The notes beneath the pieces are model-generated. The model did no database searches, was not told the origin of the DNA, and worked only from the letters and a program-made list of their open reading frames with translations. From Forficula auricularia (lineage: Eukaryota > Arthropoda > Insecta > Dermaptera > Forficulidae), in the NCBI GenBank assembly GCA_024734495.1, contig JALMQS010000132.1, positions 2,364,789 to 2,428,788 of the forward strand: a stretch of 64,000 nucleotides of DNA, read 5' to 3'. Positions within the stretch are counted from its first letter, which is position 1, and every line of letters begins with the position of its first letter. Positions 42,570 to 64,000 of the stretch are shown one piece after another. A program made the translations under genes and the position numbers.

Positions 42570-42793
42570 GGCAGAGGCTAGTTTAATTAAAATTTCCAAC
42601 GAATTTTTGTTAGAATTCGAATTTAGCAACAACTTTCCATTTTGATTCACACACCAATCTCACTTTAATAACAACTATGAAGAATATGAAATAAATGTTG
42701 TTTTCTTAAAATCAAAATGAATAAATTAATGTAACAGGAATAACAGGGAAATGAACAAAATTCAAAAATACAAAATTTTTATTAAATGGGCCA

Positions 42794-42824
42794 GACGTTT
42801 CGTTAATTTTTTTGACTTCCTCAG
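42794..42824 (-). ncRNA. Hammerhead-like motif with 12-bp stem I
   Basis: CTGAGGA (42824-42818), extra A, weak stem II (GTC...AAC), GAAA (42801-42798) and CGTC, so C17 is at 42794. Stem I is formed by 42825-42836 and 42782-42793, 12 pairs including one G-T. Stem III is the self-complementary ACGT with no loop, so a monomer could not close it but a dimer could. It is in the sense orientation in a perlecan intron. Confidence 0.55.
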
Positions 42825-43917
42825 TGGCCCACTTAATCACTCTTTGCCCAAAAACAATTTCACTATTCGACAAAACTTTATTAATCTTTTTTTAATACAT
42901 TCCTGGCTCCAATTAATCAACAATTTTGGACTTTACCTTAAAAATTAAAAAATTCAGCGAAATTAAGGAAAAGTCCAAAATTGTTGGTTAATTGGAACCA
43001 GGAATGTATTTAAAAATCAACTGGTGTGGTTACCACAAATCTTTCACATTTCGTCATCGCGATACTCCTAATTTACTCCCCTTCCTTAATTTCGGTTTTT
43101 TTGATTTTCTCAAAAACGACTCTAACGACTTTTTAAAAATTAGTGTATTTATCAAGTGTCATGAGGTATTAATTGTGTCAAATTCGCGCCGCGCGCTGCA
43201 CACTCCTACTTTACACCCTCTTCCTTTATTTCAATCGGATTAAAAATTTGACACAACTAATAACTCATGACACTTGATAAATACACTAATTTAAAAAAAA
43301 ATCGTTAGAGTCGTTTTTGAGAAAATAAAAAAAAACGAAAAATCTTTCATATAAATGTCCACTTCCAATTTTTCGATTCCAACTAAAAGCTTAACTCCTT
43401 CGAGCCTATGTCGAGCTTGTTTCGAATTTCGTAGCTTTGAGACTTATGGTTGCGAAACGTAGGGTGGGGGGTACATTTTTAAGTACGTAAACATCAACTT
43501 CCGGTTTTTCTATTTTAGCCAAAATCTTGTTATACTTCTTGTAGCCTTTAGATAGCTTAAGTTTCAAATTTCAAGGCTGTGCAACTTTCCGAAGACTAGA
43601 TATTAACGATTAAAATATTTATTTTACAACACTCCTAAATTACACCCCCTTTCTTTATTTCAATCGGATTAAAACTTATGGTTGCGAAACGCAGGGAGGT
43701 ACATACGTCATAAGTACGCATGAGCAATGGATTTTTGGCCCCTTTTTGACCTCTGGGGACCACAATTTCCGGTTTTATATCCTAAATTCGGTTTCCAACT
43801 ATTAAAGGCATCGATTCATTCCACCTAGAAGTTATAAAATGAAATTAACTTTTTTCATCTCTGAGATACAAGCTCTCAATGAGTCAGGAACTAGACAGGG
43901 CATCGCAATACTTCCAC

Positions 43918-44081
43918 CGAGGGGTGAACCGTGGCCTAATATGCTGTACACCTACTTCCACTTGTACTTCCAAATATTTCCAAGTACTTTCAAATATTTC
44001 CAAGTGTTCCAAATATTTCCAAGTAATTCCAAATACTTCCAAAGAGGTGTACACCTACTTCCAATCGCAGATCACCTCTCG
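43918..44081. mobile_element. Family C MITE, copy 2
   Basis: CGAGGGGTGAACCG at the left and GATCACCTCTCG at the right. The interior has repeated TTCCAAATATTTCCAAGTA units. An imperfect flanking repeat (ACTTCCAC/ACTTCTAA) and the uninterrupted sequence at 29720-29750 support insertion into family B. Confidence 0.65.
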
Positions 44082-44183
44082 ACTTCTAAATTATATTCTA
44101 TGAATATAAATGTGAAATTAAAAAGATTAACGATGTTTTGTCGAATAGTGAAATTGTTTTTTGACAAAGAGTGATTAAATGTG

Positions 44184-44215
44184 CTGAGGAAGTCAAAATA
44201 AATTAATGAAACGTC
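44184..44215 (+). ncRNA. Hammerhead-like motif, partner arm
   Basis: CTGAGGA, AGTC, a weak loop, then GAAACGTC. The inverted partner of 42794-42824; stem I is less well paired. Confidence 0.5.
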
Positions 44216-44447
44216 TGGCCCATTTAAGAAAAACTCTGTTTTTTATTTTTGTCAAATTCCCTGCTATTCCTATTACAAATTTATTATGGACGCGAATGAT
44301 ACAACGAATAAATTAATGATTATCAATAAAATTGATTCTAAGACTAATAGACAAGAAAATTATTAAAAAATGTAAATCTATTTTTTTAATTGTAGTGTTA
44401 GTTTTACGGTCTTTATGTAAAAGCTAGATTATCTCTGAGTTCCTTAC

Positions 44448-44668
44448 TTGTTTTTTGTTCCCCGCGGGTCTCAGTTCTTGCTTCAGTGTCGTCAGTTGGC
44501 AGTTCGGTTTGTCCACTTCCATAAAGGCTGTTTCTTCCTGTTTCGTCAAAATCGCCACTTGAGTCGATATCATCTTCGTCATCGGATCGGCGGAGTGCAG
44601 CAGCCACTTCTCCAAGACGGTTTGTCGATGCCTCAGGGATGATCGTGGATCGACGTGCTCTTTCCTCA
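44448..44668 (-). CDS. trol: Perlecan (trol) exon: glycosaminoglycan attachment segment
   Basis: A 221-bp exon with acceptor TTTCTAG (44669-44671) and donor GTAAGG (44447 downward); its phase joins both neighbours. It encodes residues 161-234. Two Ser-Gly sites sit in acidic surroundings: SSGDFDE (Ser198-Gly199-Asp200) and YGSGQTE (Ser212-Gly213). In vertebrate perlecan, heparan sulfate chains attach to SGD sites just before the SEA domain, and the same order is seen here, because the next exon begins a SEA domain. A dibasic patch (RARRS, residues 164-168) is near the start. Heparan sulfate attachment is therefore a family-based inference, well supported by the motif, the acidic context and the position. 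The exon contains no stop in this frame and has higher GC than the intron sequence around it. Confidence 0.86.
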
Positions 44669-45114
44669 CTAGAAAGTGTAAACATTTTTTAATTTTAAAA
44701 GAAGTAATTGAAAAAAAAAATTATTTTGCCGAGAGTAGCAGAGTTGTTGATTCACAAAGAGAAACAAACAAATAAATAAAAAAAAAATATATACAGATAT
44801 ATCATTTCGATATATATGTGTATGTTTATTTGCATCAAGCAGAGGACAACCTCTTTGTTTCTCTTTTTGTTCAAAGAACTAACCTTTACTTAGGAATTGT
44901 TATTTTACAGTAATATTTCAGTAGTGGTAATTTTTTCAAATAATTTATTCATAAGAAATTCTATTTGAGCTCCAGAAAATTATTAACAATAAAATATGAT
45001 TTCAAATATTCTAGTAAAAATGAGTGAGATATTTTGGCCTAATCTATCCAAATGTATTTTAACCGGTCTCTTGGAATCTCCCAAGTGTAATTAATTTTTC
45101 AAAGTAAAGATAGC

Positions 45115-45260
45115 ATTACAGGTTTGATGTTTTAGTGGTTAAGTTGATTTTCGAAAGAAAAGTTTTGGCTGAAACCAACTAGATGGTATATTTTTAATGA
45201 GAAAGTCTCATGAGATGTTTCCAGACTATTTCTGAAGATGTTTTCAAGTACTGTAAAAGA
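45115..45260 (+). repeat. Family D repeat
   Basis: GGTTAAGTTGATTTTCGAAA, then GGCTGAAACCAACTAGATGG and CTGAAGATGTTTTCAAGTAC. It matches 24500-24610 and 26540-27260. Confidence 0.55.
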
Positions 45261-45348
45261 AGTATATTATTGATAGCCTAGGATTCTGATAAGAATTTCT
45301 CATTAAAAAATTGAGCATTTTTTTAAAATTAATTATATTAATGTGAGG

Positions 45349-45545
45349 TAGAGTTGCACCGAGGAGGTGCAGCCCTTATGGCCTAAATTGGCCACTCCAT
45401 CGTGAAAAGAAGAAAAAGAGATTTTGTGGGCTCGGTATGAGTCGAAGGTATATGCGGATCCGGGTCTTAAACAAATTAAGTTATAGGTCGCGGGGAAGAG
45501 GGTGGCGGAAGCGAGTTCCAGTTACTGAAGATCATAGGAATTAAC
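45349..45545 (-). pseudogene. CR1/Jockey-type LINE 3' end remnant
   Basis: On the minus strand the sequence reads PMIFSNWNSLPP near the start and ends in a 3' UTR with GGGCTGCACCTCCTCGGTGC and CAACTC, comparable to GGTTGTACCTTCTTGGTGCA in the element at 35040-35437. Frames are broken. It is in the same orientation as perlecan. Confidence 0.55.
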
Positions 45546-45879
45546 GACCTTTACTTTTAAGTCTAGTATTTTTAATTTTTAGGTTACATTAAGTATCATT
45601 ATTAAAAAAAATTATAAACATTAAATAAATATATTTTAACAAATATTTAATGGGGGAAAAAAATTCAACCTCGGAGTCCGGATAAAAATATACTAATACT
45701 TTAAAGTCAATTACAAGTCCTGAAGAAGGTAAATAAATAATAGAAAGCTCAGCAATCAAAATATGCGATTATAATGTTTCAATGGCTAAATATCAAAAAA
45801 TATATAAATAATTATCGAAATTTAAATTTCTATATTATATTTATAGAATTATCGGTTGTAAAATAAAATAAATAATTAC

Positions 45880-46048
45880 CTTTCCAATAACTCTTCACTG
45901 ATGATGGATTCCCGTTCGGCTGAAGTGTCTTGACTACTCGTTTCATGTTTTTTATTATGATTTTTATGGTGTTTCTTCGAATGAGCCTTTTTGGGAATTT
46001 TATGAGGTTTGTGACCTAAGGTGACGTCTTCATTTTCATCAACGTTTT
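45880..46048 (-). CDS. trol: Perlecan (trol) exon: Lys/His-rich linker
   Basis: Acceptor TTTTTCAG (46049-46051) and donor GTAATT (45879 downward) bound a 169-bp exon. The entering phase (two bases to complete a codon) matches the exit phase of the exon at 48700-49012. Residues 105-160 start NVDENEDVTLGHKPHK, continue as a strongly basic Lys/His block (KKAHSKKHHKNHNKKHE) and end in SSQDTSAERESIISEELLE. The open frame runs through the whole exon and leaves in phase 2. The basic block could bind heparan sulfate or metal ions, but that is inference from composition. No known domain is visible, and the product cannot be named from this exon alone. Its place rests on phase continuity and on the short introns either side (2.65 kb and 1.2 kb). 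Confidence 0.82.
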
Positions 46049-46182
46049 CTGAAAAATAATAATGAAAGGATTTGGTTAGTATACAATTTATTATATATAT
46101 ATATATATAAAATAATAAAAAGAACAGATCTAAATTTTAATAAGTTACTAATGGGAACGGATAGCGGAATAAGAATTATGGA

Positions 46183-46214
46183 TCAGGCAGCTAGTTTCAT
46201 TCTCTAGAAATTAT
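46183..46214. repeat. 32-bp direct repeat of LINE sequence
   Basis: TCAGGCAGCTAGTTTCATTC and the next 12 bases are repeated exactly at 46473-46504. The left copy is a detached duplicate lying 135 bp from the exon. Confidence 0.75.
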
Positions 46215-46359
46215 CAAAAATAGAATGACAGCAGCTCAAGAGATTTGTAATTTTTCTACTTATGGTCAATCACAAAGGAAGTTTTCTATTGTATGATGTT
46301 AAATTAGAAACAATTCGAAGAATAGCAATTGATCGATGGATTTTTATTTATTTTATTTT

Positions 46360-46920
46360 ATTTATTATACTAAGTAGGAGCAATTGCTATAGGCCAGGAG
46401 GGAAGAGAAGGAAATTTTAGGGACTAAGTACCTATGTCTGTGGTCTTAAATAACCTAGGGGAAAATCCGAAGTCAGGCAGCTAGTTTCATTCTCTAGAAA
46501 TTATAGGGATAAACGAATTGATTAATACATTATATCGATTCTTAACTAATTTGACATCAAAGGGTTCGATAATCACGTATTTCTTACAAACAGAAGCTTT
46601 AGAGGGGATATTGACTTTAACTCGTCAGAACAAACATCATGGTGGTAGTTATAGTACCTACAGAGAAATGGGGTAGACGATTCTACGGTGAGCCAAGGAT
46701 TCTCGTGAGCTAGATAGGCCAGAGTATCCTATTAGTTTTATTACTCTCTTCAAAAAAGGATATCTTGAGAATGCTTGGAAGACCCTCTCCACAAATACTA
46801 GCCATATTCGAAGCATGGACGAATCCGAGCCTTTTATAGAATAAGTAATTGAGAGGGCATAAAATAATGTCTAGTCCTGAAGAGAAAGCCAAATTTGAGA
46901 GTAGCAACTTTGACTTTTAG
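46360..46920 (-). pseudogene. CR1/Jockey-type LINE C-terminal pseudogene
   Basis: Read on the minus strand, the pieces ESLAHRRIVYPISL, (R)YYNYHHDVCSDELKSIS and LLFVRNT followed by LSNP, then NSFIPIISRE, follow the order of the C-terminal region of CR1/Jockey LINE proteins (E-L-HRR, then YY-H-CS-EL, RNTR and FIP-SR-WN). Stops and at least two frameshifts separate them. The 3' end is TAATAAATAAAATAAAATAA-like (46345-46375 on the minus strand). It is dead and 5'-truncated, oriented with the host gene. Confidence 0.62.
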
Positions 46921-47603
46921 AGACTTTAATTCCATTTCTGAAAACATTTCTATCTTTTATTTTTAACATTGTTGTGATTATCAAGTGGGCTAATAAATTT
47001 ATCTCAAAACTGTGTCTTTTGAAATCCTATTAAATATTTTTTCTGGTAATTTTAATTTTGAATCTCAAATCGTGCGCTATTAAAAGCCTACAAGTTGCTA
47101 GTAGAAGTGTTCATCCTCTCCCCTTTTAACTTAACGATTTAATTTAAAAATATGTGAAAATTCTCGAAAATACTTTAGTGTGAGTACTTTGAAAAAATAA
47201 TTAGTTTGGATGACAGATCAAACTAGGGATTCCTTACTCATTAGACCCACTCGCCTATTGGAGAATAGATATCGTACCTATATATAAGACAGTTCCGCCT
47301 CCCCGATTGCCCTTTTCCAGCCCCTTTTATTGGAGTATCGTAAACGTTTTTTTTTTTATCTTGGGCGTTAACTTTGAAGATAAAATTCATATACAAGAAG
47401 AAAGGCCGAAAGCAGTGGAACGTATTAGCCAATCAGAGAAAGATTATAATATACTTATGGGCAGGGCGATAGTTGGGGCAGTGGCCAGAAGGTTTAAGGG
47501 GCGTTTCAGACAACTCTATTTCTCTTTCAATATAAAAATGAGAACTAGTTTAAGATTCGGTTCCATGGATTCAAATTTTCGATTTGACTATTATTTGTTA
47601 GCG

Positions 47604-48250
47604 CAGTGCTTCCCAACCTAGGGTCCGCGGGTTTTTAGCGAGGGTCCTCGAAAATTTTCAGTAGAATGTACAAATATTTTTTATGAACATTTTTAAAATC
47701 TCGTGCACAGATCCTTAAAATATGATCACATTTCGATCGGTAGCTCGAGAAGAGTTGATCGACATCAGATCAGATAATTTGCTTGAGGTTGAATATAATG
47801 AAAAAAGTATTTCAGAATTTTAGATAAGGCGACTGTAAGAATATCCGTCTATAGCAAAAGAAGCCTTGGTAATCCTAAATTCTTTTGCGACTACATGCCT
47901 ATGTGAAAGAGCATTTTCGTCATTATTTTTAATATAAAATAAGCACAGATCATGCCTTTCCAAGGAAACTTTGGAAGATTCTTTGCGAGTTAGCATTTCT
48001 AAAATTAAATCAGATATTGATTTGTTGTGTAAAAACATACTATTCATTAAATTGTTTTGTGAGCTTCATGCTATGTATAGTTTTTCTTATTTTATTTTTA
48101 AAAACTGTTTGTAAGTTACTATTCTTTGTGAGAAAATATAAACATGTGAAACAAAAATTTTGACGACTAAAATATGTTTTTTTCGGGGGTCGGTGGATTA
48201 TTTTGTCAGATTTAGAGGGCCGTGGCATGAAAAAAGGTTGGGAAGCACCG
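47604..48250. mobile_element. hAT element, internally deleted, perfect 8-bp duplication
   Basis: Ends CAGTGCTTCCCAACC and GGTTGGGAAGCACCG. Both sides carry TGTTAGCG (47596-47603 and 48251-48258). At 647 bp it is far shorter than a full hAT element, and it keeps only the tail of the transposase. Confidence 0.9.
47746..48060 (+). pseudogene. hAT transposase C-terminus (SCAND3/ZBED5-like)
   Basis: The forward frame reads REELIDIRSDNLLEVEYNE, then after two stops EYPSIAKEALVILNSFATT, CLCERAFSSLF, a stop, and LEDSLRVSISKIKSDIDLL followed by CKN. This is the hAT dimerisation tail in the form seen in SCAND3/ZBED5-type transposases (EYP-I-K-A, T-LCE--FS-L, LR--LS-I-P-I--LC). At least three in-frame stops make it non-functional. 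Catalytic and zinc-finger parts are missing. It lies within the 647-bp hAT element and supports its classification. Confidence 0.8.
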
Positions 48251-48699
48251 TGTTAGCGGATGGTTCAAGTTTAAAGTTGAAATTTGGAACCCAGATGCAC
48301 TTTATTAATAAAAATATCTATGCCAAATTTCTGTTCATTAGTTACGACCATTCGATAGCTTCCCAAATGACAATTCAATTTTTTTCTGAATTCTATATTT
48401 TCAAATCAGAAATTTTGAAGTTTAAAATCTAATCAGTATCTATTCCCATACAAACATTTTGGCACCAGAACGAGTTTTCTACAGCTTTACGTTCTTGGTA
48501 TCGGAATCCAGACATCAGAAAAAATGCATCTTTAAACTGAAATTTCTTCACTTCTTAAACATTTTTAAAGACAATAAGCAAATTAGCAAATAAGTCGAAT
48601 GAATTCAATATTTCATCCTGTCTGGCGGAAAGGTTCCGCGCTTGCTTTTCTGCTTTCGCTTATATTATAATTGAAATTATTATTAGTATTTATACTTAC

Positions 48700-49012
48700 T
48701 TTCCGATGATGATGAAAGTGTTGTTGAAGAAGAAATTAGATCCTGGTCCTCTTCTTCCTGATTTGGTTCAGTCGTTGTTGTAGTTTTTTCTTCAGGAACT
48801 GTCCACCAAGGATCAAATAATCCTCGTTTGATACTTCGGGTTAATCGTCTTAGATGATGAAGAATACCCCCATTTTCTTCAATCTTGTCATCTAATACCG
48901 GTGAGATTAAGCTTGAGGATAGAATGGGGTTGTTCTCGCGATATGAATTCTGGATGACTGCAGGTCGGGATTGTTCTCCAATATCATCGAACACGAGGTC
49001 ATTATCGTAGTA
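48700..49012 (-). CDS. trol: Perlecan (trol) exon: acidic, Ser/Thr-rich N-terminal segment
   Basis: This exon encodes residues 1-104 of the visible product plus one base of codon 105. It begins YYDNDLVFDD, runs through an acidic region, then a basic patch containing RSIKRGLFDPWW, and ends in a Thr/Ser/Glu-rich stretch (TTTTTEPNQEEEDQD, then a poly-Ser region). The acceptor is a pyrimidine tract with CAG (49013-49015). The donor is GTAAGT (48699 downward). It enters in phase 0, so another coding exon with the signal peptide must lie upstream, and none was recognised between 49,013 and 64,000. RSIKR resembles a furin-type site, which is inference. The segment has no recognisable fold. Assignment to perlecan rests on splicing in frame to the exons below; a Ser/Thr-rich acidic segment fits an extracellular O-glycosylated or glycosaminoglycan-bearing region. 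The exon structure is more certain than the protein name. Confidence 0.82.
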
Positions 49013-49376
49013 CTGAAAATGAAAGAGAAACATACACAAAAATTAATTAAATATTTCTTCAAAAAAGTTTAGAGATATCTTACTTAAACACTCGAGTTCC
49101 TTTTTAAAATTAGAGATAGTTTGCTTAAATCTTGAAAATAAAAATAAAATCCCGATAACCGAAGTGTTCACACTACAATATAATTTATTTCTATAATTTC
49201 TAACATCTTATGTGACAAATGAACTGGAGAGTCATATTGAGATTTGACTAGCTGCTGACATGGTGGACGCAATAAAAACAAAGCTTATACAAGTACTATT
49301 GATTCCATATAAAATGTAAAACCCACGCCGAAATAAATCCTTTTATCGAAAGCGTGCCACGATTCATTTAACATAC

Positions 49377-49770
49377 TAGCTGCAAGGCCGCCTTCGCGCC
49401 CTTCTCGGGGGCACCTCCCGGACCCCACCCTCACACTCCGCTCGCACCCACTACACCCCCTGAAACCCACCCAGCACCCCTACCCACCGTACCATGCGGC
49501 CGTGCCCAACCCCCGCCCCCACACTATCACCCCAACACTCCATCCCGCACCCCACCCACCTCGGACCCCCAACCCACGAACCCCACTCCCACCCCTCACA
49601 CCCACCCCCCCACCATGCACCCATGCCCAACCTCGCCCCCACGTCACCACCCAACACTCCATCCCGCACCCCACCCACCTCGGACCCCCAACCCACGAAA
49701 CGTGTGCAACCAAAATTTGGCGTGATTTGGAGCAATGTACAGACAAAACCTTAATTTTATATATATAGAT
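49377..49770 (+). mobile_element. Element with GC-rich minisatellite
   Basis: It starts ACTAGCTGCAAGGCCGCCTT and ends TTAATTTTATATATATAGAT. The centre is two copies of about 125 bp (CCCCAACACTCCATCCCGCA, GGACCCCCAACCCACGAA) of C-rich sequence, giving long spurious open frames. The start and end types match 52163-52465. Confidence 0.6.
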
Positions 49771-49778
49771 TATCCTTG

Positions 49779-50020
49779 AAGGAGACAATAAAAGAGTGTG
49801 TCTTCTGCTGGAATTATACATTTTATTTATTTATATATATAACGAGACTATAGTTTCGAGGGCTTTGCCCTCTTCATCAGTCTATTACAATGGATTCACA
49901 GGAATTAATTTATGAATCTAATTTATAATTTATGAAGGGGCAAAGCCCTCGAAACTATAATCTCGTTATTATATATAAATAAATAAAATTTATAATTCTA
50001 TCAGAAGACACACTCTTTTT
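49779..50020. mobile_element. Hammerhead family 1 foldback with 13-bp target duplication
   Basis: Two inverted arms, each ending in an AGAGTGTGTCTTCTGCTG-type terminus, with TAGATTATCCTTG on both sides (49766-49778 and 50021-50033). It is 242 bp long. The minus arm has an intact core; the plus arm (TTATGAA, stem, GAAACTATAATC) is damaged in the first box and at the cleavage triplet. Confidence 0.85.
49846..49880 (-). ncRNA. Hammerhead-like ribozyme, best copy
   Basis: CTGATGA (49880-49874), extra A, stem II GAGGGC/GCCCTC with loop AAA, GAAA (49857-49854), stem III AC/GT with loop TATA, C17 at 49846. Stem I begins GA/TC, then a GT bulge, then ATA/TAT. All conserved core bases are present; the A between the box and stem II is not in the standard consensus. 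It is in the sense orientation in the perlecan upstream intron. Confidence 0.68.
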
Positions 50021-51754
50021 TAGATTATCCTTGTTTGGTAACTAATCCAAATAGAGGGATTTTAGTAACTCGTATTAGGAGAAGAGTTTGCTTTATACAT
50101 TATTCTAAATTTTTTTGATTAAAAATGACAATTGTTAATAAGCGTAGATTTAACTATTTTTACGCAAGTTAGTGAATACATAATTTAATTAGTTTAAATT
50201 TTAATTAATAATTTAATACTTTATTAAAAAAATTAATCACTAACTATTTTGTATAATATAAATCAATCCTAAATAAAGTCCCATAAAATTGCTTCTTGCC
50301 GGTACAAACAATTTAAACAAGCCAGAAAAATTCAAGAAATTATTTTAAATCCTTCATATTATTAAGTGGTATTCTTGCATATTAATTTATTATTTATGTA
50401 TAGTTTGATTCTCGCAAAATTTAAAATTAAAATAATTTTTGATTATAAATAGCCTATAATTCTTAATTAAGTATTTTAGATATGGTATTCAAATCAGCAA
50501 AAAATAAAATCTTTAAAATAGCCCATGCAATGAATTATCATAAGAATGATAAAGTTTCACATGATCCTTTAGAACAAAAAATTGCTAATATTAGGAAAAA
50601 GATGCACGAAACGTGAGAGGGAGATGAACGCGGAGTCCAGTTTGAAAACAGTGACTTAAAGGCTTAAAACTCTTAGCTACAAAAAAAGAAAAGAAACAAA
50701 CAACCCTGGATAAGTTTAACCGGCGGTTTTCTCGATAAAGGATTAGGGAGAGCCAGCATTCCAGAGTTATCAGCTCCAAGGAATAGCTTTTCGGTTACCA
50801 TCAAACTGATACCACCTCTGCACAACACGAATCAATTAATCACGTGATCTAAAAAAAAGGCTTGCCCGAAGCGGTCAATTATCTTTTAATTAATTTTAAT
50901 CAATACCTTGTCATTCTTAATCTCTAATAAAATAATTGTTTGAACCCGTTAACAAGAAGATCAGTATCAAAGTCATTTGCTAGATGATTAAGAAAATCAT
51001 TTATCCTGTTAATTAGACTTTTTTCTTCATCTTGATGATTTCATGAACAATTCAAATCAAGTTAGACCTTAATAATGAAGATAAAAGAAAAGAATAAAAA
51101 GATTCTTAAATTGTCTGAGACATTAATCCATTAAGAAAAATTAGAATCGTTAATCATATGAAGATCCTTTTGAGGGAGTTAATGACGCGAATGAAAATAT
51201 TCATGTTCTTAAGAATTTAGTAAAAACGGTAAAACAAAAGTTTTCCATTCCATTGTTGCCAAGAATTTATGTAGAATATATTTATTTATATATTAAATAA
51301 TTAAGAGAGAAAGAATTTAATTTTTAGGACAAAATCTTAGATTTTAGTAGAAATATTTTTATATTGCAATATCAGAGGTTGAACCTGAGAACTAACATGC
51401 TTTCCGGGCAGTTAGTTAACCCTCGAGACAAAAACCTCTTTCTGACCCGCAATATATTATATAAGCGAAGAAATTTTTTACCCCAGTCGTCCACTGGAAG
51501 CGAAAACGCGCTACGGCGATGCAGCGGGACAATAAGCCAATACTCTACTAAATACTAATACTACTCTACTCCATTTGCTAATTGTCGAGATTCATCTCCA
51601 GTAGACGACCGGCCTTAGGTATTCCATTCTTCTGTAAAGGAAAATAAAAAATTCAGCTTAAAATGAAAAAAAGTTTTTCTTAGAGGATCTTTTGTTTAAA
51701 TATAAAACTAAAGATTTGAGCATCAATTTTTTGAAAATAGTTGGAATGTTTTTC

Positions 51755-51950
51755 AAACAAATTATATTTTAAAAAAACTAAAAAACATGCTTCTAAAAAG
51801 TTCAAAATAATGTAATACTTAATCAAAAAGCGTGGGGGATTTTGTCGAAATTAATTAAAATTTTCTGTGTACCACGCTTTTTGATTAAGTATTACCTATA
51901 TTATTTTATACTTTTTAGAAGCATGCTTTTTAGTTTTTTGAAAATATAAT
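51755..51950. repeat. Palindrome, 78-bp arms
   Basis: AATACTTAATCAAAAAGCGT and ACGCTTTTTGATTAAGTATT face each other across about 40 bp; the arms extend to AAACTAAAAAACATGCTTCT on the left and its complement on the right. Non-coding. Confidence 0.8.
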
Positions 51951-52162
51951 TTATTTTTTTACTATTTAGTCTTAATTATTTTTATAGAAAAAAGTTTGCG
52001 GAAGTTAACAGAATGAAATGTATTTATTTTTATTATTTTTATATAATTACATTCAAATTTAGTTGGTAAACAATTATCTTTATAGAGAAATATTTGCCTG
52101 ATTTAACAGAACGAAAGTAACATTGATAGATAGATAGATAAATTGAAGCTAATATAAAGCAC

Positions 52163-52465
52163 TAGCTGACGACCGACCCTTCGGACCGGCGTCACCTAGT
52201 CCCTGGCGGGAAGTGTCTCGTTCATACCAATTTAATAATTGAAATTTAAAATGATACTGTAAGTATTTAAAGAATGTGGTGAATGAAATTGATTCAACAA
52301 TAAGGAAAGATTTATTTAACACATTGGCTAAGCATGAACACTATCTGGCCAATCAGAATTGTTCTAATAATTTAACGCTTTGCTATTGGCTATGCACTGA
52401 CCAATCAAATCGTTTGGATCATTCAAACATATATACATACTTTTACATTTTATATATATAGATAG
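52163..52465 (+). mobile_element. Short element, ACTAGCTGAC to TATATATAGAT
   Basis: A GC-rich head (ACCGACCCTTCGGACCGGCG) and a TTTTATATATATAGAT end like those of 14100-15037 and 49377-49770. About 300 bp, non-coding. Confidence 0.5.
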
Positions 52466-54365: not shown

Positions 54366-54977
54366 ATTTCAATTAAATGTAGGGTTGCTTAGGGAAAAAT
54401 ATTATTTACTTGTGCGTGAGAACATTTTTGAAAATTATGACCCTAGCCGGAGAAAGAAGTGAATTTAAATGCATTTTTTTCGGGGTTAGTCGTTCACAGC
54501 AGAATCTGGATGTGAGAGGGAAAAAGTTTATTCATTTTTTAATTGTTAAATTGTAACAAAAACAGCACCAAGTGATTTTGATTCTAGATCCCGATAAGAG
54601 AAGAAGAGAGGTCAGTCATAAGCAGCTTAATGGAGAAGGGCCGTTGAGATCATTGAATCTCTTCCCTTATCTAGAGTTTTAATCGTTGCCAGTCATTTGA
54701 GAAAAAGATACAATTGAAAGACGAAATATTTAAGAGGATTAGACATTAAATAAATAACAAGAGATTAATTGAATATGGTATCAAAAGAAAATCAAGTTTA
54801 TTTTAAAAAATTCAAGGGATTATTTAATCATCATGCAGAGTAATAATAATAATATAAATAGAATAGATTTTTAATTAATTAATACTATAAAAATAGGTAG
54901 ATAGTTCCCACGCAAGAACGATCCCAATTACGACCATTCATTTTGGAAAAATTTTCTATCTTTGCAGTCATTGTATT

Positions 54978-56268: not shown

Positions 56269-56574
56269 TATAATTAATGATTTCTATACATTCTTATCCT
56301 ATGGCCTAAAAAAACAAAAAATAAAAATAGTAAAAAAAATCATTAAATTAATATTTCTCGTCATATTTAATTTTTAACTTTCTCTACAAACGTAAATGGG
56401 CCCTCTATTAGTGTCACCATCACATGTGTCTGTTTTTTAAATTGATTCTAAAATTATTGAAATTTCTTTAGTATCACTTTGTCTTCGAATAATTTGTGTA
56501 TAAGTAATTTTTCTTTTTTTATAGATATTTTAATGAAATCATATTTTGTTTGTCTATAAATCGTCTTACCATAC

Positions 56575-57320
56575 TTTTCGGTGTGACCGGGACTATTCCG
56601 GTTTGAAGCTATGGTTCAGGTGTCCCGGTCAGTTTTTCATTTTGTCCCGTTAATTTGGAAAAATTAAGTGTTGCCTAGGAAAAGTTAATTTTGAACTAAA
56701 TTTTAGTGGATTTCTTGACGTGATTAAAAATACAAAGAAATAGAAGAAAAAGTAAAAACTTTTTTCAAGACCGGGTATGCTTGTTAGTTAAAGCCGTAAC
56801 AAGTAATTTCTTTTGTACATTTTAATGATGTCCGATTGAATATTCTCTCTCTTTTATAACGAGTATGGTCCGAGTGAAAAAGACCATTCCTAGAATAATT
56901 TAAATTAAGAAATTAATCTCTAATAGTCTGAAACAGGTTAGAACTTGTATTTGGTATCTTTACAGTGCCTTCTTAGCTCTAAAGAAAAAGAGATCCTTCT
57001 ATACTAATTAATCATTTTTCTTTATTAACCACTTCACAAAAAAGATCATCTTTTTAAATCATAAACTCTTTGCTGAATATAATTATCTCTTTGTAAAATC
57101 ATATAGAAGTTCCTCATTTTATTATTTCGAATAAACTCTCAAATTATCGTGGTTTGAGAAAAAGATATTATAGTAAGTGTTTTTAAGTAGGTACCTCGAA
57201 GACCTCAAAAAAGGCTATATAAAATTTTTAGGAAAATTAGGTACATTTTAAAGTACTTTTCTAATCAGTAATTACTTCACAAAAAGATCATATCTGATTA
57301 ATAATAAAGAAATAAACAAA
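56575..57320 (+). mobile_element. Family F repeat, copy 3
   Basis: GTGTCCCGGTCAGTTTTTCA and the following 330 bp are collinear with 41133-41650 minus its LINE insertion. The 57080-57160 part matches 15880-15980 inverted. Non-coding. Confidence 0.55.
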
Positions 57321-57699
57321 TGTACTAATATTTCAAATGGCTATGGATAAAGTCTAGAACCGATCCGTTGGAGTTTATTTTTATTGGTATTATTACAGCC
57401 GTTTATTTGAATCGGGTAGGTTATGGTGACTTGTATTTTTTTCTTTTTTGCAAATATCTAAATGAGAAATTTCGCTCTATTTATTTTTGTGAAATTTTTA
57501 TTTTTTAAATGTGACAATTACTTATCCCAAAATATTAGTAAAGTTCACTGACAATGTTTACTTAATTATTTACCTTTCTTACTCTTTAGTATATTTTTGA
57601 AAAAAGGTTATAGAATTATGAACATAAACCAGAAAAATGTTAAAATGTTAAAGATGAAATATTTTAACATAATCCTAAATCAAAAAGTACAATGAATTA

Positions 57700-57872
57700 G
57701 GGCCGTTTGTGCGTCGCAAAGTAAACCGACTTTTTACCAGTAACACAAGGTAGATGGTAAATGGAGGGACATCTATCAGTGCCTGGCATCTGATTGGCCA
57801 CCCCAGTCCCTCCATTTACCATCTATCCTGTGTTAGTGGTAAGATTAGCATTTACTTTGCGACATACAACCC
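57700..57872. mobile_element. PIF/Harbinger-type MITE, 173 bp
   Basis: Ends GGGCCGTTTGTGCGTCGCAA and TTGCGACATACAACCC form an imperfect inverted repeat. TTA flanks both sides (57697-57699 and 57873-57875). An inner inverted pair (GATGGTAAATGGAGGGAC and GTCCCTCCATTTACCATC) makes most of it palindromic. Confidence 0.8.
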
Positions 57873-58811
57873 TTATATTGTTGGTAAATTTTACAAGGAT
57901 TTACATTTTCATGATTTAAGAAAAAAATTTTGTTGTTGTTTTTTTTTCACTTAAAATTCAATAATTCAAAAGAAAATTAATATTTTCTAGAGTTTTATTT
58001 TATTTTCACTTGATATATAAAAATGTAATATAATTCATTTCTATAACGAGCACTATTTTTTTCATTTTGTTTCTTTTAGAGAAGAAAGTGCAATAATTTG
58101 TTTCTAATGAAAACTTTTATAATTTGGCTGAAAACTTCATTTTAACTTTTTCTATATTATTTTTATTTCTTGTTTTTTTTTTCAGTTTCGACTTTTCTTA
58201 TTGTTTTATTTTCCAATGTACAAATTACAGACATCGTTTTTTGGCTTTTAATGGAGTGGGTATCTAAAAAACAGGTTGAATCTTCAGTTTGAATACGACA
58301 GCTGGCTTTCTTAAACATTCTAGCGAAGCATAGACGAGTGTTATAGAATAGGGACTGTTTAGAAAAAGAAAGAACAAATAGACGAAGAGAGTGGGCGATG
58401 CAGAAAGTCTTTTCGTAACGAGGTATCTCAAAAATAAGAATTCAACTCAACAAACACAATTAACGATCTCAGTTTAAATTCTGTAATTAAACCTCTCGAA
58501 AAGTAGAAATCTCTATTTTAAATTGTATTTCTAAACAATAAACAAAAAAACTTGAACTAACTATCATTAAAATTAAAGTAAGTACTATAATATAAAAATT
58601 TAATTAATATAGTTAGAAACTTATTTTTATTTATTGTATATATCAGGGGTGGCCACTAGCCTTAACTTTGGGAGCCGCAAATTTATAAAATTGTTTCAAA
58701 GCGAGTCACATTGTTTGGAGATTAAATAATGGTTTATTAAAAAAAAGACACATTTTTTATTTTATAAAATATAAATGAAGTAACATATATTTTTTGCTCT
58801 ACTTACTTATA

Positions 58812-59050
58812 ACATTAGTAGAAAATCATAAGATGGTGTCATCTATTAAATCCGATGGAATGGAATATTTTTAAGTATATGTCAGAGGGGTTGTTCTCAC
58901 CCCTCGGGAATCGAACCCGAGTGTAAAAAACAACCCCTCTGACATATAATTAAAAATATTCCATTCCATCGGATTTAATAGATGACACCATCTTATGATT
59001 TTCTAGTAAATTTGAATCTATTATCATCGGCAAATTAATATCTTTCATAT
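58812..59050. mobile_element. Foldback MITE of the 36-kb family, short copy
   Basis: Arms ATGGTGTCATCTATTAAATC, GATGGAATGGAATATTTTTA, ATGTCAGAGGGGTTG and their complements, separated by about 30 bp containing TCGGGAATCGAACCCGAGTG. The tRNA-like core of the 36-kb copies is missing. Confidence 0.8.
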
Positions 59051-59214
59051 AACATTAGTGTTCAATTACAATAAAAAAAAGAAATAACATTTTACTTTTG
59101 AGAAGTGCTTTTACGAGATTTAATTTTTGTATTATTAATTTTTACTTTACCATAAAAGGTATGGAAAAAAGTGTTTTTTTTTTGCTTCTTTTTTTCGAAA
59201 TATCTAAAAAACGG

Positions 59215-59430
59215 CTGAAACTGAGCAAACTCAACCAAATTTTGTATACATAATCTAGTGGACCCCCAGAAGTCTAAAAATGCAAAAACTAACCGCCCAA
59301 AAGAAAAGGGGAGGGTTGTAGGGTCAAAAAATGAAAATATAGGCCCTTGTACCAAACTCAACCAAATTTTGAATACATAATCAGTGGGTCCCCAGAAGTC
59401 TAAAAATGCAAAACTAACCCCCTCCCTACA
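59215..59430 (-). repeat. Tandem repeats, reverse of 12160-12470
   Basis: Two units with AAACTCAACCAAATTTTG, CCCCAGAAGTCTAAAAATGC and AAAACTAACC. They create the spurious minus-strand frame at 59092-59361. Confidence 0.65.
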
Positions 59431-61203
59431 TGAATATAAATAATTTTATTAAATATTAAATATAAGTGAGGGGCCAGGTTTTATGGTAAAGTCAAGTGGC
59501 CGGCTACATCAGAACTTGTCAGTTTATCTAATTTAATTATTATACTTTTTAAAATCAGTATTATTCAAGATGGTTCAAGAACCGCACGAGATTGACTGAA
59601 GAGCCGTATCTTTTTGTAACAATATATGTTGAGCTATCTTATTATGACATTTTCCTTTGTTTTTTAGACTGATGGTGGTAAAGACTGTTTGCCGAAACAG
59701 TTTTATAATTTATTAAATATTAAAAGAAAATGAATTTTGTTTCAGCTTACTGAAAAAAAAATATATATATATATATATATTTTACATTGAGAACATACCT
59801 AATAAGATAATAAGTAATAACCTAATAACTAGTAAGTGTTCTTCGGAGCTTTTAGATATCTCAACGATTGGTGAAATTGTAAATGAATATATGCTATCGA
59901 AGTTCCAATTATTAAAATATGTATGTTAAATTGTTTTTATGGGAAATCATTTCGAATTAAAATATGAATAGGAGCTTTCGGAATTTAATTTAATTTAAGT
60001 AAATTAAATAATTCAAATTACAGTTCAGGTACAAGTAATTTTTTTACTATTTCAAGTGAATATTTATAAATTTATTGAAATATTTATTCTGTGCATTTAT
60101 AAGATTTAATTGATTCCTAATATACTGGCACACTCTCCCTGCTTAGCGGAGAGAAGTAATGTTAATTCTTCAAGTCCTGAGTGCACTAGTCCTTCCTCCT
60201 AAATTTTTAATTGTAGTTATAAACAATGAACAAATAAACTTCGTTTAATTATTAGTAAAATATTAGTAATATAAAAATTTCATTAGTTTTAAAGCTTATT
60301 TTTATTTATTGTTCATATTTTATATACGGTACACATTGTGAAAAATTTTGTGAATATAAAACGGCATTTTCCTTAAGAAATTAAGCTCATGTTGTTTTTT
60401 ACCCATTCGATGCATTTTTTTTCAAGTTAATTATTATCTAACAATTATATTTGAGTCGCTCTGAAGCCAAATTCGGAGAAGTCCACTTTTGAAAAATTTC
60501 TAAATTTCGGTAAATTCTTATCCAACAAATTAAGTTAATTTTTTTACTACATAAGATTTTTTCTTGTTTAGGTTTTCCTCAGTAGAGTCAACATTTTATT
60601 TCTTCTGAATATGTTTTCTTATGTTGCGGCTTAAAAAACATCTATTTTTAATAATTGATGTTTTATGGACTTAACCGCATTGGCTGCTGACTCATTAATT
60701 TCCTAAAAGAAATATAAAAGTCAAAAGATATACGGTCATAGGTGAAGTAAAATGAATTAGTTTTGATTTTAAATACACCAGGACAATTTAGAAAGTTAAC
60801 CAATAAATGGCCATACGCCTGAATATAGGCAATCAATTCGTCATCTCTGCGTCAAGGCTGCGTAAAACATAGGCTCTCCTGTAAAGTACTTGAGTTATAG
60901 AGTTCATATAGAACCTGGTTTCATTTCAAGATATCACAATTTCCCCGCACTTACTAATAATGCTTAAATGTAAGGCTAATTTAAAGTAGTGGCGGGTCGC
61001 TAAACTTCTTTGACCGCCGACCCCTTCAAGAGCTTCTTGAAATTTTATCAAACCCCTTTATTTAATTAGTTGAATAAAAGATTTCACTGTCGATGGTACA
61101 GAATTGTTTTTATTTTAGGTTAAAAATAAAATGAAGAGTCTTCTGTTTTTTAAATAAAATAATTTTTAACCTTTATTTAACTTTTTATTATTTTATATTA
61201 TTA

Positions 61204-61251
61204 TTGCGTCAAAACAGTCTTAGTACTGTATACTCAATTATGAAGATAATT
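61204..61251 (+). pseudogene. RTE-type LINE tail, about 50 bp
   Basis: GCGTCAAAACAGTCTTAGTA, then CTGTATACTCAATTATGAAG equals the last codons, stop and 3' tail of the element at 31813-32634. A minimal 5'-truncated insertion. Confidence 0.65.
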
Positions 61252-61425
61252 ATAATATTTATATCTAATAACACTGTTAAATAGTTAATAATCATTATAA
61301 TAAAAATTTAGTTTTAAAATAAAACATTAAACTGTTTGATATACCTATAATTTGAGGCAAATTAATCATTAAATATATGTTATTAATTATAATTTGCTTG
61401 GAAACATGAATATTATGCATAGATA

Positions 61426-61467
<42 letters not shown>

Positions 61468-62019
61468 AAACAAAACCATTTGTAGAAGGAATTATCTCAT
61501 ATTAATAAACATTTATTATAGAAATTTGTGCCTGAATAGATGCAGAGATTTTAGAGGTTTGCTATCAAATAAATCAATTTCACTATTTAAATACAATTGT
61601 GTAAATAGGTGTGTTAAGTCAATAATAATAAAACATATATTATTATATTTAAAAAATATAATATATGCATTGTTTTGATAGTATAATGTATTTTTTTATA
61701 CTATTCAAAATTCAAGGAAATATCGACGTCATAATACTGCCTGAATCAGTCAAAAATAAATTTTGTCTAGAATCGTTCGAATTTTTATTTCTATATTTAT
61801 TAGTATTATTCAATTCACTAAGTATACATATCATATATTACAATAGAGCAGTGTTTCTTATTTAATAGCACTCCATCTAATGCATAGATATTATTTAGTG
61901 TCTCACTAGCGAATGTGTAAAAATTTAAAATTAGAATTATGTTATTAATACCGAAAAATGTAATAATTTTTAAATTTTGTATTAAATATTAATATATGAT
62001 ACATATAATATGTAAGAAC

Positions 62020-62960
62020 TAATCAACTGGTGTGTGCGCCAACATCTTTCACATTAGTTCCTTATTTGAGATCATCATATTAATTTTCTTCATTCAAAGT
62101 ACTTCAATTCGGTCTTTTGTTTTTAACCAAAATCTCGAGGTTTGTCTTCTAGCATCTAGATCAGGGATTCCCAAACCGTGGTCCGCGGGCCGCATGAGGC
62201 CCTTTTAAAAATAAATTATCATACCTCATATCCTTCTTTAATCCCATTCGATTTAAACCAGGGCTGTCCAACCCGTGGCCCAATACAAAGTCATAAAATT
62301 CCTTAAAACATTAAGATTTATATGAATATACAGGTAAACACACAACAATTTGACCTGATAATTTTTTTTCTCTAAAATAATAAATCTTAAAATCTACTGT
62401 GAAATTTTCTAAAATAAAAGTGATAAATTTAAATTTTGAATCTAAAACTAGATTTCAAGATTTCCGAAAAAATAATGGTCTATTTTCGACTCCATTTTCA
62501 CTAAAAATAAATTTTCTACTTGGAAACTTTCTGATTGAATGTTCTAGAAAAACAATTAGATACCTATCTGAAAGAAAAATTGAATATTGTCTCATTATTG
62601 AAATTTTATATTAATTATCCTGCCAGAAAAAATATAAACAAATACTAATACATAATATCACTTTTTGTAATTATGTAGGTATGTATTTAAGAATAGTAAA
62701 AATAGAAGCTCACTATGAGCTAAATATTATTAAAGTTCTTATTTTTACATTAATAACTAATAACAAATATCAATAGAATTATAATATTTATCCGCGGCCC
62801 GAGACAAGTTTTTTTCTTCAAATGTGGCCCGTATAAGCCAAAAGGTTCGATACCACTGCTCTAGATAGCTTAAGTTTCAAATCTCAAAGATCTGCAACTC
62901 ACCGTATTGGAACTAAGGGCATTCATTTTTTTCGACATGACTAATTTACTCTCCACACTT
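62020..62960 (+). mobile_element. Family B copy split by a hAT element
   Basis: CAACTGGTGTGTGCGCCAAC, then CTTTCACATTAG on the left and TAGCTTAAGTTTCAAAT on the right are family B sequence. The join at CATCTAGAT/CTCTAGATAGC matches the uninterrupted form at 43540-43560. Confidence 0.65.
62162..62858. mobile_element. hAT element, 697 bp, non-coding
   Basis: Left end CAGGGATTCCCAAACCGTGG, right end GGTTCGATACCACTG. The flanks ATCTAGAT (62154-62161) and CTCTAGAT (62859-62866) agree at 7 of 8 positions. A second hAT-type start, CAGGGCTGTCCAACCCGTGG, lies inside at about 62262. Confidence 0.7.
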
Positions 62961-63164
62961 GATTCCAATAGGAATTTAAACCTACTCTTTGAAAAAAAAA
63001 TAAACTCAGTTGATCAAAATGTTTTATTTATATCGGTTCACAAACATTAGAACTTTATTAACTAATATTTATTTATCTGAAGAATTTAGTGAAATTTGAA
63101 AGTTTATAAGGGGAAATAAAAACAAGTTTTTTTGTGTGATTTTTTATTTTTTGTTATTTTTCAA

Positions 63165-63197
63165 CCACCGTTTCGTCAACCTTGCTGACTTCTTCAG
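63165..63197 (-). ncRNA. Hammerhead-like motif
   Basis: CTGAAGA (63197-63191), extra A, stem II GTCA/TGAC, GAAAC (63174-63170), then GGTGG. The cleavage triplet is changed. Sense orientation to perlecan. Confidence 0.5.
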
Positions 63198-63347
63198 AGC
63201 TTCTACAATTATAAAACATTATTAATATGTATTTGCAAGAGTACATTGTAAGATTGAAGTAATTTTTGGAGACGGATTGAGTGGATATTGATGAGGCAGT
63301 CCAAAAAAAGAAGAAGATAATTTATACTATCCTTTTATTCATAAACC

Positions 63348-63379
63348 GACGTTTCGGAGGCTATTCTCTCCTTCTTCAT
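63348..63379 (-). ncRNA. Hammerhead-like motif
   Basis: ATGAAGA (C3 changed to A), extra A, stem II GGAG.../CTCC, GAAACGTC, and stem I AAACC/GGTTT. One core substitution. Confidence 0.5.
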
Positions 63380-63581
63380 GGTTTTGAAAAGTCAGTGAAG
63401 GAAATCCAATGCGATATTCCCTTCTGTATCCTCTTTCAATGGCAGTAACAATACTATATCGTATTTCATTCTCACTATAATTCTGCTGAGAATGAAATAC
63501 GATATATTATTGTTACTGCTACTAAAAGTGGATACAGAGGGGAATGTCGCATTGGATTTCCTTCATTTACTTTTCAAAACG

Positions 63582-63611
63582 CTGAAGAGAGGTAATAGCC
63601 TACGGAACGTC
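63582..63611 (+). ncRNA. Hammerhead-like motif, partner arm
   Basis: CTGAAGA intact, stem AGG/CCT, then GGAACGTC (A13 changed to G). The partner of 63348-63379. Confidence 0.45.
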
Positions 63612-63781
63612 GGTTTATGTATAAAAAGATAGTATAAATTATCTTCTTCCTTTTTTTGGACTGCCTCATCAATATCATCTCAGTACATTATAATTTCAGA
63701 CCAAACTTATATTTTATCCACCAAATACATATTACATATCTTCAATGGTAACGATAATGTGTGATGTAACTAGTTGAAGCC

Positions 63782-63812
63782 CTGAAGAAGTCTGCAAAGT
63801 CGACGAAATGTT
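63782..63812 (+). ncRNA. Hammerhead-like motif
   Basis: CTGAAGA, extra A, stem II GTC.../GAC, GAAATGTT, with stem I AGCC/GGCT. GAAAC has become GAAAT and the triplet is GTT. The partner of 63165-63197. Confidence 0.5.
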
Positions 63813-64000
63813 GGCTGAATAATAAAAAAATCACCCAAAAAAACGTGTCCTTAATTCCCATTAAAAACTTTCGAATATGGTATATAAATACTGTACCTAT
63901 GTTTATATTAAGGATCAATTTTTAAAATATGAGAATAAATTTAATGATTGTCTTACTTTTATAGAACAAACCAGTTGATTAAAAGAAAAACGCTCTCTTC

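Follow-up and report, generated by a model that had tools for sequence, protein, structure and literature searches.

Penelope-like elements (PLEs) of the Penelope/Poseidon type are known to carry inverted pseudo-LTRs, target duplications and an optional tail. In the relevant sections of PMC3846280 and PMC11167929 the target duplications measure 8-10 bp, and the optional tail of ~31-40 nt lies on one pseudo-LTR. A PLE protein in purified form is able to cut and extend both strands; it uses two start sites, and the stretch between them is the tail (PMC11167929). The origin of the inverted pseudo-LTRs is left open where PMC3846280 deals with it, and a passage of PMC7761336 calls the role of the PLE hammerhead unknown. 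Minimal type I hammerheads of PLEs are described, in the portions of PMC7761336 and PMC6466107 that summarise this work, as acting as dimers and as being arranged in tandem. The part of PMC7229834 on axolotl reports 126,247 hammerhead motifs, a number similar to that found here.

The window analysed here is a stretch of 64,000 nt from Forficula auricularia (GCA_024734495.1, contig JALMQS010000132.1, 2,364,789-2,428,788 of the forward strand), which contains foldbacks bearing a hammerhead-like core. We consider it likely that these foldbacks are PLE insertions, made by target-primed reverse transcription on both strands and partly from hammerhead-cut RNA. A strict core pattern, CTGANGA-N6-30-GAAAC, counts 125,683 matches in the 1.06-Gb genome, compared with 5,135 for the reversed pattern, and five in the 64-kb window, compared with 0.41 expected; on these counts a chance origin of the motif was set aside. 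A covariance model finds 12 window cores at E<=0.01, three of them training rows. Pattern and model together bear out the claim of a preliminary description that the core occurs in several sequence-distinct families. Three facing pairs on its list of cores were recovered; the list lacked the cores at 41667 and 59669, and its 'remnant' core at 42536 has no covariance-model match at E<=10. At gathering scores no Rfam hammerhead model matched the window, and at E<=10 none matched the further selected stretches that were scanned. The Rfam listing at E<=10 held mainly microRNA models, which we took to be long hairpins matching by chance. The elements in the window are the following (hits and E values are those of the covariance model).

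18642..18669, minus strand: family-B hammerhead core, left arm of a facing pair (hit 18620-18681, E=2.3e-7)
18732..18758, plus strand: decayed family-B hammerhead core, right arm (hit 18720-18776, E=0.0015); a target duplication was looked for around the pair 18642/18732 and none was recognised
30697..31096: degraded hammerhead foldback, exact 13-bp target duplication at 30697-30709 and 31084-31096; cores TTGAGAA...GATCGAAAC, the left starting at 30798 (minus) and the right ending at 30954 (plus), E=2.9 and 0.031
32932..33113: foldback, core 32972-33000 (minus; hit 32950-33012, E=2.3e-8, training row), arms inverted, decayed partner core within 33033-33095 (plus; E=0.4); a target duplication was searched for and none was recognised
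41660..41765, plus strand: single-arm, tail-less family-B insertion, core 41667-41694 (hit 41655-41716, E=2.3e-6), flanked by an 11-bp target duplication GAAATTAAGAC at 41649-41659 and 41766-41776
42732..44305: hammerhead foldback, exact 13-bp target duplication at 42719-42731 and 44306-44318; beyond the core, left arm 65 nt and right arm 93 nt, the right with an ORF-start-like word
42797..42824, minus strand: hammerhead core, left arm of 42732..44305 (hit 42775-42836, E=2.6e-12, training row; strict pattern)
44184..44212, plus strand: hammerhead core, right arm of 42732..44305 (hit 44172-44234, E=5.4e-6; strict pattern)
44721..44869: family-C foldback, hammerhead core lost, mapped to the PLE reference; the right arm starts at reference 338, the predicted cut being between 336 and 337
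49779..50020: family-B foldback, 13-bp target duplication at 49766-49778 and 50021-50033; cores 49853-49880 (minus; hit 49831-49892) and within 49921-49977 (plus; E=0.035)
59669..59698, plus strand: hammerhead core (hit 59657-59720, E=1.5e-5)
63170..63197, minus strand: hammerhead core, left arm of the outer nested foldback (hit 63148-63209, E=6.7e-11, training row; strict pattern)
63252..63681: inner foldback, enclosed by the arms of the outer foldback; its 12-bp target duplication (63240-63251 and 63682-63693) has one mismatch; beyond the core, left arm longer (99 nt vs 73 nt)
63351..63379, minus strand: hammerhead core with box ATGAAGA, left arm of the inner foldback (hit 63329-63391, E=2.6e-10)
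63582..63608, plus strand: decayed hammerhead core, right arm of the inner foldback (hit 63570-63630, E=0.0083)
63782..63809, plus strand: hammerhead core, right arm of the outer nested foldback (hit 63770-63831, E=4e-11)

The facing pairs reported earlier at 42797/44184, 63170/63782 and 63351/63582 are present, each with its left core on the minus and its right core on the plus strand. What had been noted as 'decay' at 30,800-30,960 is a degraded pair, and lies inside an exact 13-bp target duplication. The core at 32972, previously regarded as solitary, is probably not so, given its decayed partner and the inverted arms. The target duplication of the inner foldback 63252..63681 is uncertain: it scores 9.5, whereas the 90% quantile for randomly paired flanks is 10.5. 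The core-less foldback at 44721-44869 is, by its mapping, part of the same system, and is the sole representative of family C in the window.

RNAalifold recovers stems I and II, with two-sided changes in seven of eight pairs. Paired cells reach 93% compared with 58% in shuffles, and 88% compared with 51% in a second test, although the counts of pairs with two-sided changes were not above shuffles in either shuffle test; the covariation that the preliminary description proposed to look for in both stems is present on the first two measures. A single unpaired nucleotide, A or T, stands 5′ of stem II (A in 65 and T in 30 of the first 100 genome matches listed), so that the 'extra A' described earlier is a consistent extra nucleotide, but not A alone. 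One study reportedly describes a viroid whose hammerhead has an additional nucleotide in the catalytic core; we take this viroid to be Chrysanthemum chlorotic mottle viroid, with the nucleotide between A9 and stem II. An extra core nucleotide is common to both cases, in a plant viroid there and as a genome-wide feature here. Stem III is absent or a palindrome, with GAAACGTH without a loop in 32 of 70 cores, GAAAC-4 nt (mostly TATA)-GTH in 31 and other forms in 7. By their CUGANGA/GAAA core, covarying stems I and II, and stem III, the cores are minimal type I hammerheads and predicted ribozymes.

At locus L059 (C563), a PLE frame of 827 aa matches RVT_1 (1.5e-16) and GIY-YIG (7.6e-6), and the family-C core is present in two copies 2,909 bp apart (a tandem unit), on either side of the ORF. 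The family-C hammerhead thereby sits in the PLE pseudo-LTR, upstream of the 827-aa frame. A sequence search gave 242 relatives at E<=1e-20 (120 among them listed). In 21 of 21 cases family-C foldbacks map onto the L059 PLE, one arm ending at reference 435-444 and the other at 470-490. Family B has a tail word in common with this PLE. PLE proteins gave no listed match to the window or the other loci. The PLE link consists of a coding element for family C and of anatomy for the window's other families, which are read as PLEs because they share the PLE layout: a core set back from the ends by ~60-180 nt, a tail that in some of them includes an ORF start, and a target duplication. The families had been called unrelated: they are distinct in sequence, but that they are unrelated in kind is doubtful in view of this common anatomy and the family-C coding element, and the shared core is therefore best explained by pseudo-LTR descent plus retained constraint. 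The preliminary description had ascribed the recurrence to selection on the core; the explanation given here comes near the common descent of the whole element that it had named second among its possible refutations.

If the elements are of PLE origin, their facing pairs arise from the insertion mechanism. In the first 100 listed cores, neighbours of the same family that lie less than 1.5 kb apart form 20 '-+' pairs, one '++' and no '+-' or '--', and all neighbours together form 22, 4, 6 and 1 pairs in these orders. Judged by arms and flanks, the facing pairs are insertions of two 5′-truncated arms between target duplications. Target duplications were called in 24 of 28 pairs, and exact ones of at least 9 bp occur in 15 of 26 pairs, compared with 2.4 in shuffles (shuffle maximum 7). 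Where a target duplication was called, the arms differ in length by 30-67 nt in 21 of 24 pairs and by 10-20 nt in three (the calls are doubtful for L032, L010 and L048, with differences of 10, 17 and 20, and L032 is one-tailed by mapping). In family C, a tailed arm faces a tail-less arm in 21 of 21 foldbacks, 14 of them fetched with a tail-containing query and seven without; this set excludes L002 as divergent, L019 7933-8202 because its right end could not be classified, L051 and L054 as one-armed, and L066, which has one long arm and whose partner, if any, would lie beyond the fetched stretch. L041 and L052, divided in the main mapping, entered the set with the pieces of two other mappings. 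The window's family-B foldback 49779..50020 breaks this one-tail rule, with an arm difference of 8 nt. Among the 27 family-B centres checked, 11 have the exact tail word on neither side; two of these could not match, as the centre differs, and the remainder may be tail-less at both ends. One-armed inserts were found at L051, L054 and 41660-41765 of the window. In the 12 family-C foldbacks with inner ends more than 12 nt apart, the deeper arm is tailed in seven and tail-less in five, so neither arm simply copies the other.

The inner junctions were compared with the predicted hammerhead cut. Family-C junctions occur at 139 places; in the 50 listed, 53 of 100 arm ends fall exactly at GTC^TCAAAC, a count to which chance matches add a few because arm ends were taken as longest matches. 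At least one arm ends at the cut in 40 of these 50 centres, in 25 distinct junctions, and the centres are diverse (33 distinct). Family B, with 1,339 places, has gap 12 in 27 and gap 2 in seven of 50 listed, whereas a neighbouring interval (416 places) has no gap class above 8 of 50 listed. Family-B junctions are not diverse, one class making up 27 of the 50 listed centres; within the gap-12 class the tail is on the deep arm in 308 places and on the cut arm in 252. Two loop-less families, family A (24 distinct places; ten are common to its two place lists) and the 42.7-kb family (4), have no cut-site peak, a weak negative on so few places, and a further tetraloop family gave 0 places in the junction search. 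In four family-C elements (L032, L044, L056, L070) the junction lies at reference 243-251, on or next to a self-complementary stretch. The junction sites in families B and C suggest that in vivo the RNA is first cut by its own ribozyme and then copied into the genome. With less assurance than for the PLE insertions as such, we favour a reading in which the hammerhead of two PLE families cuts RNA in vivo, the cut 5′ end becomes the inner cDNA end on both target strands, and the strands use different start sites, leaving one tailed and one tail-less end.

Reverse transcriptase can halt on structured RNA, and the junction peak might reflect stalling at the folded hammerhead, not cleavage. We regard this as unlikely, since in two families, which differ in their flanks, the peak separates the predicted C17 precisely from the base that follows it, a stop would be expected 3′ of stem I, and two other hammerhead families lack such a peak, if on few places. 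Self-priming, in which one cDNA or antisense RNA snaps back and copies itself into inverted arms, is the proposal found in PMC3846280, in a part that also describes palindromes at inverted PLE junctions; palindromes lie at several junctions here too, including those of the four family-C elements. It nevertheless seems quite unlikely, as a copy should not exceed its template in depth and carry a tail that the template lacks, yet the tail-less arm is the deeper in five of 12; moreover, the outer ends are unequal in all 21 family-C foldbacks, and the hammerhead-cut junctions indicate a sense rather than an antisense RNA template. Animal retrozymes are short repeats in direct tandem that contain type I hammerheads and move by way of small circular RNAs. 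They would account for such a hammerhead in short non-coding repeats, and the tetraloop class resembles the axolotl retrozyme hammerhead with palindromic tetraloop described in part of PMC7229834; we consider them very unlikely here, as same-family neighbours among the first 100 cores listed are inverted in 20 pairs and direct, as in retrozymes, in one, and the outer part of family C is PLE 5′ UTR with a tail. Foldback or MITE-type DNA transposons that acquired a hammerhead and move as DNA would have inverted arms and target duplications, and the one large family-B junction class is as expected of master copies, but this origin is hardly credible when, in place of equal arms and a fixed interior, in 21 of 24 pairs one arm exceeds the other by 30-67 nt at the outer end and family-C junctions are diverse, when the 308-to-252 split excludes a single master unless its centre was inverted by recombination, and when the family-C arms align with a PLE and some inserts have a single arm.

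On the reading of target-primed insertion from both strands, the foldbacks would be PLEs reduced to pseudo-LTR/5′-UTR sequence with a minimal type I hammerhead. This hammerhead would lie in the 5′ UTR of the PLE RNA, and reverse transcription would begin at one of two sites, ~105 and ~150 nt 3′ of the predicted cut; where stem III is palindromic (ACUAUAGU), RNAs of the family could pair two by two as a double hammerhead, and part of the RNA would be cut at GUC^. The PLE enzyme would cut both target strands and one cDNA would be primed on each, one from the distal ('tailed') and the other from the proximal ('tail-less') start site. Each cDNA would extend to the RNA 5′ end, whether transcript start (placed for family C at reference ~206-211) or hammerhead cut, or stop early, and the cDNA 3′ ends would be joined via a palindrome, via microhomology or bluntly, to give an antisense-then-sense foldback with target duplications of ~9-16 bp. 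We infer catalysis, the double-hammerhead form, the order of steps and the family-C-like behaviour of the window's other families. If this is true, cut RNA would yield short dead-end foldbacks because the 5′-UTR start sites are only a short distance 3′ of the hammerhead, the ribozyme would limit the spread of full-length PLEs, and ribozyme activity would be recorded in the genome as foldback junctions. The junction peak allows that activity to be read from the genome alone, family by family, and the one-tail rule with unequal inner ends discriminates self-priming from two separately primed cDNAs; both analyses are repeatable on any assembly rich in such elements.

We found no earlier description of the one-tail rule or the cut-site junction peak in the PLE literature searched. 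Like the Penelope/Poseidon-type PLEs of Adineta vaga (in the relevant part of PMC3846280) and Anolis PAc (PMC11167929), the elements have inverted pseudo-LTRs, palindromes at the inverted junction and, here in family C, an RT+GIY-YIG ORF with a hammerhead near its start. Unlike them, the copies here are mostly pseudo-LTR-only foldbacks, with a one-arm tail throughout the 21 of family C and a junction peak at the hammerhead cut in two families. With minimal PLE hammerheads, as described in parts of PMC7761336 and PMC6466107, the cores share the core sequence, stems I and II, a missing or very short stem III, a palindromic stem III region and the PLE association; they differ in the near-constant extra A/T before stem II, and inverted pairs, in contrast to the tandem arrangement described there, dominate close neighbours. 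As in animal non-LTR retrozymes, short non-coding repeats carry type I hammerheads, but where the corresponding part of PMC7229834 describes direct tandem repeats and circular RNAs, the repeats here are inverted pairs with target duplications.

The hammerhead-like core, CTGANGA followed after 6-30 nucleotides by GAAAC, is present five times in the window (G+C content 30%) against 0.41 expected. In the whole genome of 1,061,512,967 bases it has 62,686 + 62,997 matches, compared with 2,577 + 2,558 for the same pattern read backwards. Searched with a covariance model of 23 cores, the window gave 12 sites at E ≤ 0.01, three of them training rows (cores used to build the model); evenly spaced stretches of its contig, 200 kb in all, gave 28 sites, eight of them training rows. 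The Rfam hammerhead models gave no match in the window at gathering scores, nor at E ≤ 10 in the further stretches scanned.

RNAalifold recovered four pairs each in stems I and II of the 23 cores, with two-sided changes in seven of the eight. Stem II had 93.2% of its cells paired (58.3% in shuffles, at most 54.5% when slid), in rows most of which had been preselected for four or more stem II pairs; stem I was free of selection. The 18 cores taken as loop-less gave 88.1% over the seven pairs of both stems (50.8% in shuffles, at most 48.2% when slid). Covariation in stems I and II, proposed as a check in the preliminary description, was borne out by these paired cells and by the covariation score, which, like the number of cells with two-sided changes, lay above 500 of 500 shuffles in both the stem II and the 18-core test. 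Pairs with a two-sided change showed no excess, being matched by 465 and 365 of 500 shuffles, respectively, and the count of pair types, matched by 468 and 7 of 500, stood out only in the 18-core test. Among 12 family representatives (14 clusters minus two without a definable cut), 27 of the 36 innermost stem I cells were paired, a value reached by none of 2000 shuffles (mean 14.0).

The same description held that an extra A follows CTGANGA. An additional nucleotide is indeed common: skipping one gave a stem II of 4-6 pairs in 74 of 100 unselected genome matches listed, whereas more than three pairs formed in one match with two skipped and in none without a skip. Its identity is less strict: across the 100 matches listed, 65 have A at this position, 30 have T, four have G and one has C. 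At stem III, GAAAC runs directly into GTH in 32 of 70 cores classified, a 4-nt loop intervenes in 31, and seven have neither; the loop is mostly TATA, making AC-TATA-GT a palindrome. Cores at L017 4978-5003 and L019 8412-8437 carry GAAAT and an AT-rich palindrome in place of GAAAC, with CTC/GAG as stem I, and L021 946-971 looks akin to them.

A genome search for GIY-YIG domains, of which the best 150 of 3,423 candidates were scored and matched, yielded a tandem Penelope-like element (PLE) at locus L059 on C563, the reference for family C. Its 2,909-bp unit holds a frame of 827 aa that encodes both RVT_1 and GIY-YIG, flanked on both sides by family-C cores in the same direction. The protein's top match is 58% identical, and the relatives listed come from insects such as Euphydryas, Diabrotica, Tribolium, Harmonia and Ischnura and from other animals. 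At L060, a 5'-truncated ORF is fused to a tailed pseudo-LTR fragment in inverted orientation, the tail being the extra outer stretch that one arm of a foldback carries. Family B (18.6, 41.7 and 49.8 kb of the window) and family C have the tail word CTGCTACTCTCGG in common. The families at 30.8, 32.9, 42.7 and 63 kb are putatively linked to PLEs by their anatomy; in the 42.7-kb family and the L034 family, the long arm includes ATGGACRCGAAT, which looks like the start of an ORF.

Same-family neighbours less than 1.5 kb apart, among the first 100 cores listed, are arranged -+ in 20 cases, ++ in one, and +- or -- in none; for all neighbours the counts are 22 (-+), 6 (+-), 4 (++) and 1 (--). Every family-C foldback mapped on L059 likewise has a minus-strand arm, then a plus-strand arm. 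Across families, target duplications were called in 24 of 28 pairs, with arms differing by 30-67 nt in 21 and by 10-20 nt in three, and 15 of 26 pairs had an exact duplication of 9 bp or more, compared with 2.4 in shuffles (maximum 7). Within the window, duplications at 30.7, 42.7 and 49.8 kb score between the 95% (11.5) and 99% (14.5) quantiles of random flank pairs; those at 63 kb fall short of the 90% quantile, and a search at 18.6 and 32.9 kb found none. Two family-A cores stand in direct orientation, 74 bp apart, at L010 509-612. Further features of the window are:

36113-36859 and 58815-59080: long inverted repeats (I2, I3, I5, I6, I8) belonging to a different family, which these two distant places share
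44721-44869: core-less foldback, the only family-C copy in the window
49779-50020: facing pair with an arm difference of 8 nt
63170-63809: foldback nested inside the mirrored arms of a second repeat of hammerhead type, as also at L041 901-1221

Foldbacks typically bear one tail. In all 21 complete family-C cases (14 retrieved with a tail-containing query, seven without: L019, L030, L032, L036, L041, L044 and the window), the outer ends fall at reference 435-444 on one arm and at 470-490 on the other. All six family-B pairs inspected by eye carry a single tail, and complete overlap of two lists for one family-B class, a comparison blind to centres with neither arm tailed, gave 182 one-tailed centres and one two-tailed, the latter in the G000:C137:8879888 region. 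The exact family-B tail word lay on one side in 16 of 27 centres checked, on both in none and on neither in 11, two of which could not match. The pair at 49779-50020 is an exception. At L036, L052 and L057 the tailed end runs on into short TTTTCAATT or TTTCAATT repeats; it is as if the reverse transcriptase had begun again on those few bases, in a manner reminiscent of telomerase.

In families B and C the inner junctions peak at the predicted hammerhead cut. Family C has 139 centres no more than 30 nt away from the flank chosen next to the hammerhead; of the 100 arm ends in the 50 centres listed, 53 lie exactly at GTC^TCAAAC, a few of them by chance because ends were taken from longest matches, and the runner-up positions (11, 10, 8 and 6) are all short of the cut. 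At least one arm is at the cut in 40 of these 50, with 25 distinct junction sequences. Among 50 listed of 1,339 family-B centres, the gap is 12 in 27 and 2 in seven. Both arms end at GTC^TCGTT in the three gap-2 places with sequence; of eight such gap-12 places, six join a cut arm to a GAAAC arm with CGA in common and two are a variant thereof. A neighbouring stretch of the family-B arms had 416 centres, and no single gap size accounted for more than 8 of the 50 listed. Within the gap-12 class, 308 centres have the tail on the deep arm and 252 on the cut arm, a split that a single amplified master would not produce unless recombination had inverted its centre. Two families without the stem III loop gave few centres and no cut-site pattern: family A had 16 and 18, of which 24 are distinct and none has the cut-to-cut gap, and the 42.7-kb family had four. 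One further tetraloop family searched gave none.

In family C, inner ends are at most 12 nt apart in 9 of 21 cases. Several of these lie in or next to a self-complementary stretch around reference 249, or else around 206-211, a position that may mark the 5' end of the transcript. In the other 12 they are 22-194 nt apart, the deeper arm being tailed in seven and tail-less in five. Self-priming, in which inverted arms arise from one strand copying itself, has been proposed on an antisense template for inverted pseudo-LTRs, with the mechanism left open (PMC3846280); it is improbable here, since a snap-back copy should not yield both signs of depth along with the one-tail rule. We favour instead two cDNAs that would be primed separately, one on each target strand, one starting at the distal site and the other at the proximal, and joined at their 3' ends; their templates would be whole 5' UTRs or hammerhead-cut RNA. 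In family C, the predicted cut is followed ~105 and ~150 nt downstream by the two start sites, and the ORF comes after both; cut RNA primed there can thus yield only short foldbacks, and we infer that in this way the ribozyme would curb full-length copies. This model was not found in the literature searched, which took in a minority of subscription papers.

PLE hammerheads are described in PMC7761336 as minimal, without helix III, in tandem and possibly acting as dimers, and double-hammerhead structures are cited for them in PMC6466107. Inverted pseudo-LTRs, 8-10-bp duplications and an optional tail are likewise described for PLEs (PMC3846280). In a lizard, no reads were found at the hammerhead cut (PMC11167929), so the junction signature is either not general or not visible there. 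The same study shows that a PLE protein cuts and extends both strands from two start sites, the tail being the interval between them, and that the strands do not differ in vitro (PMC11167929).
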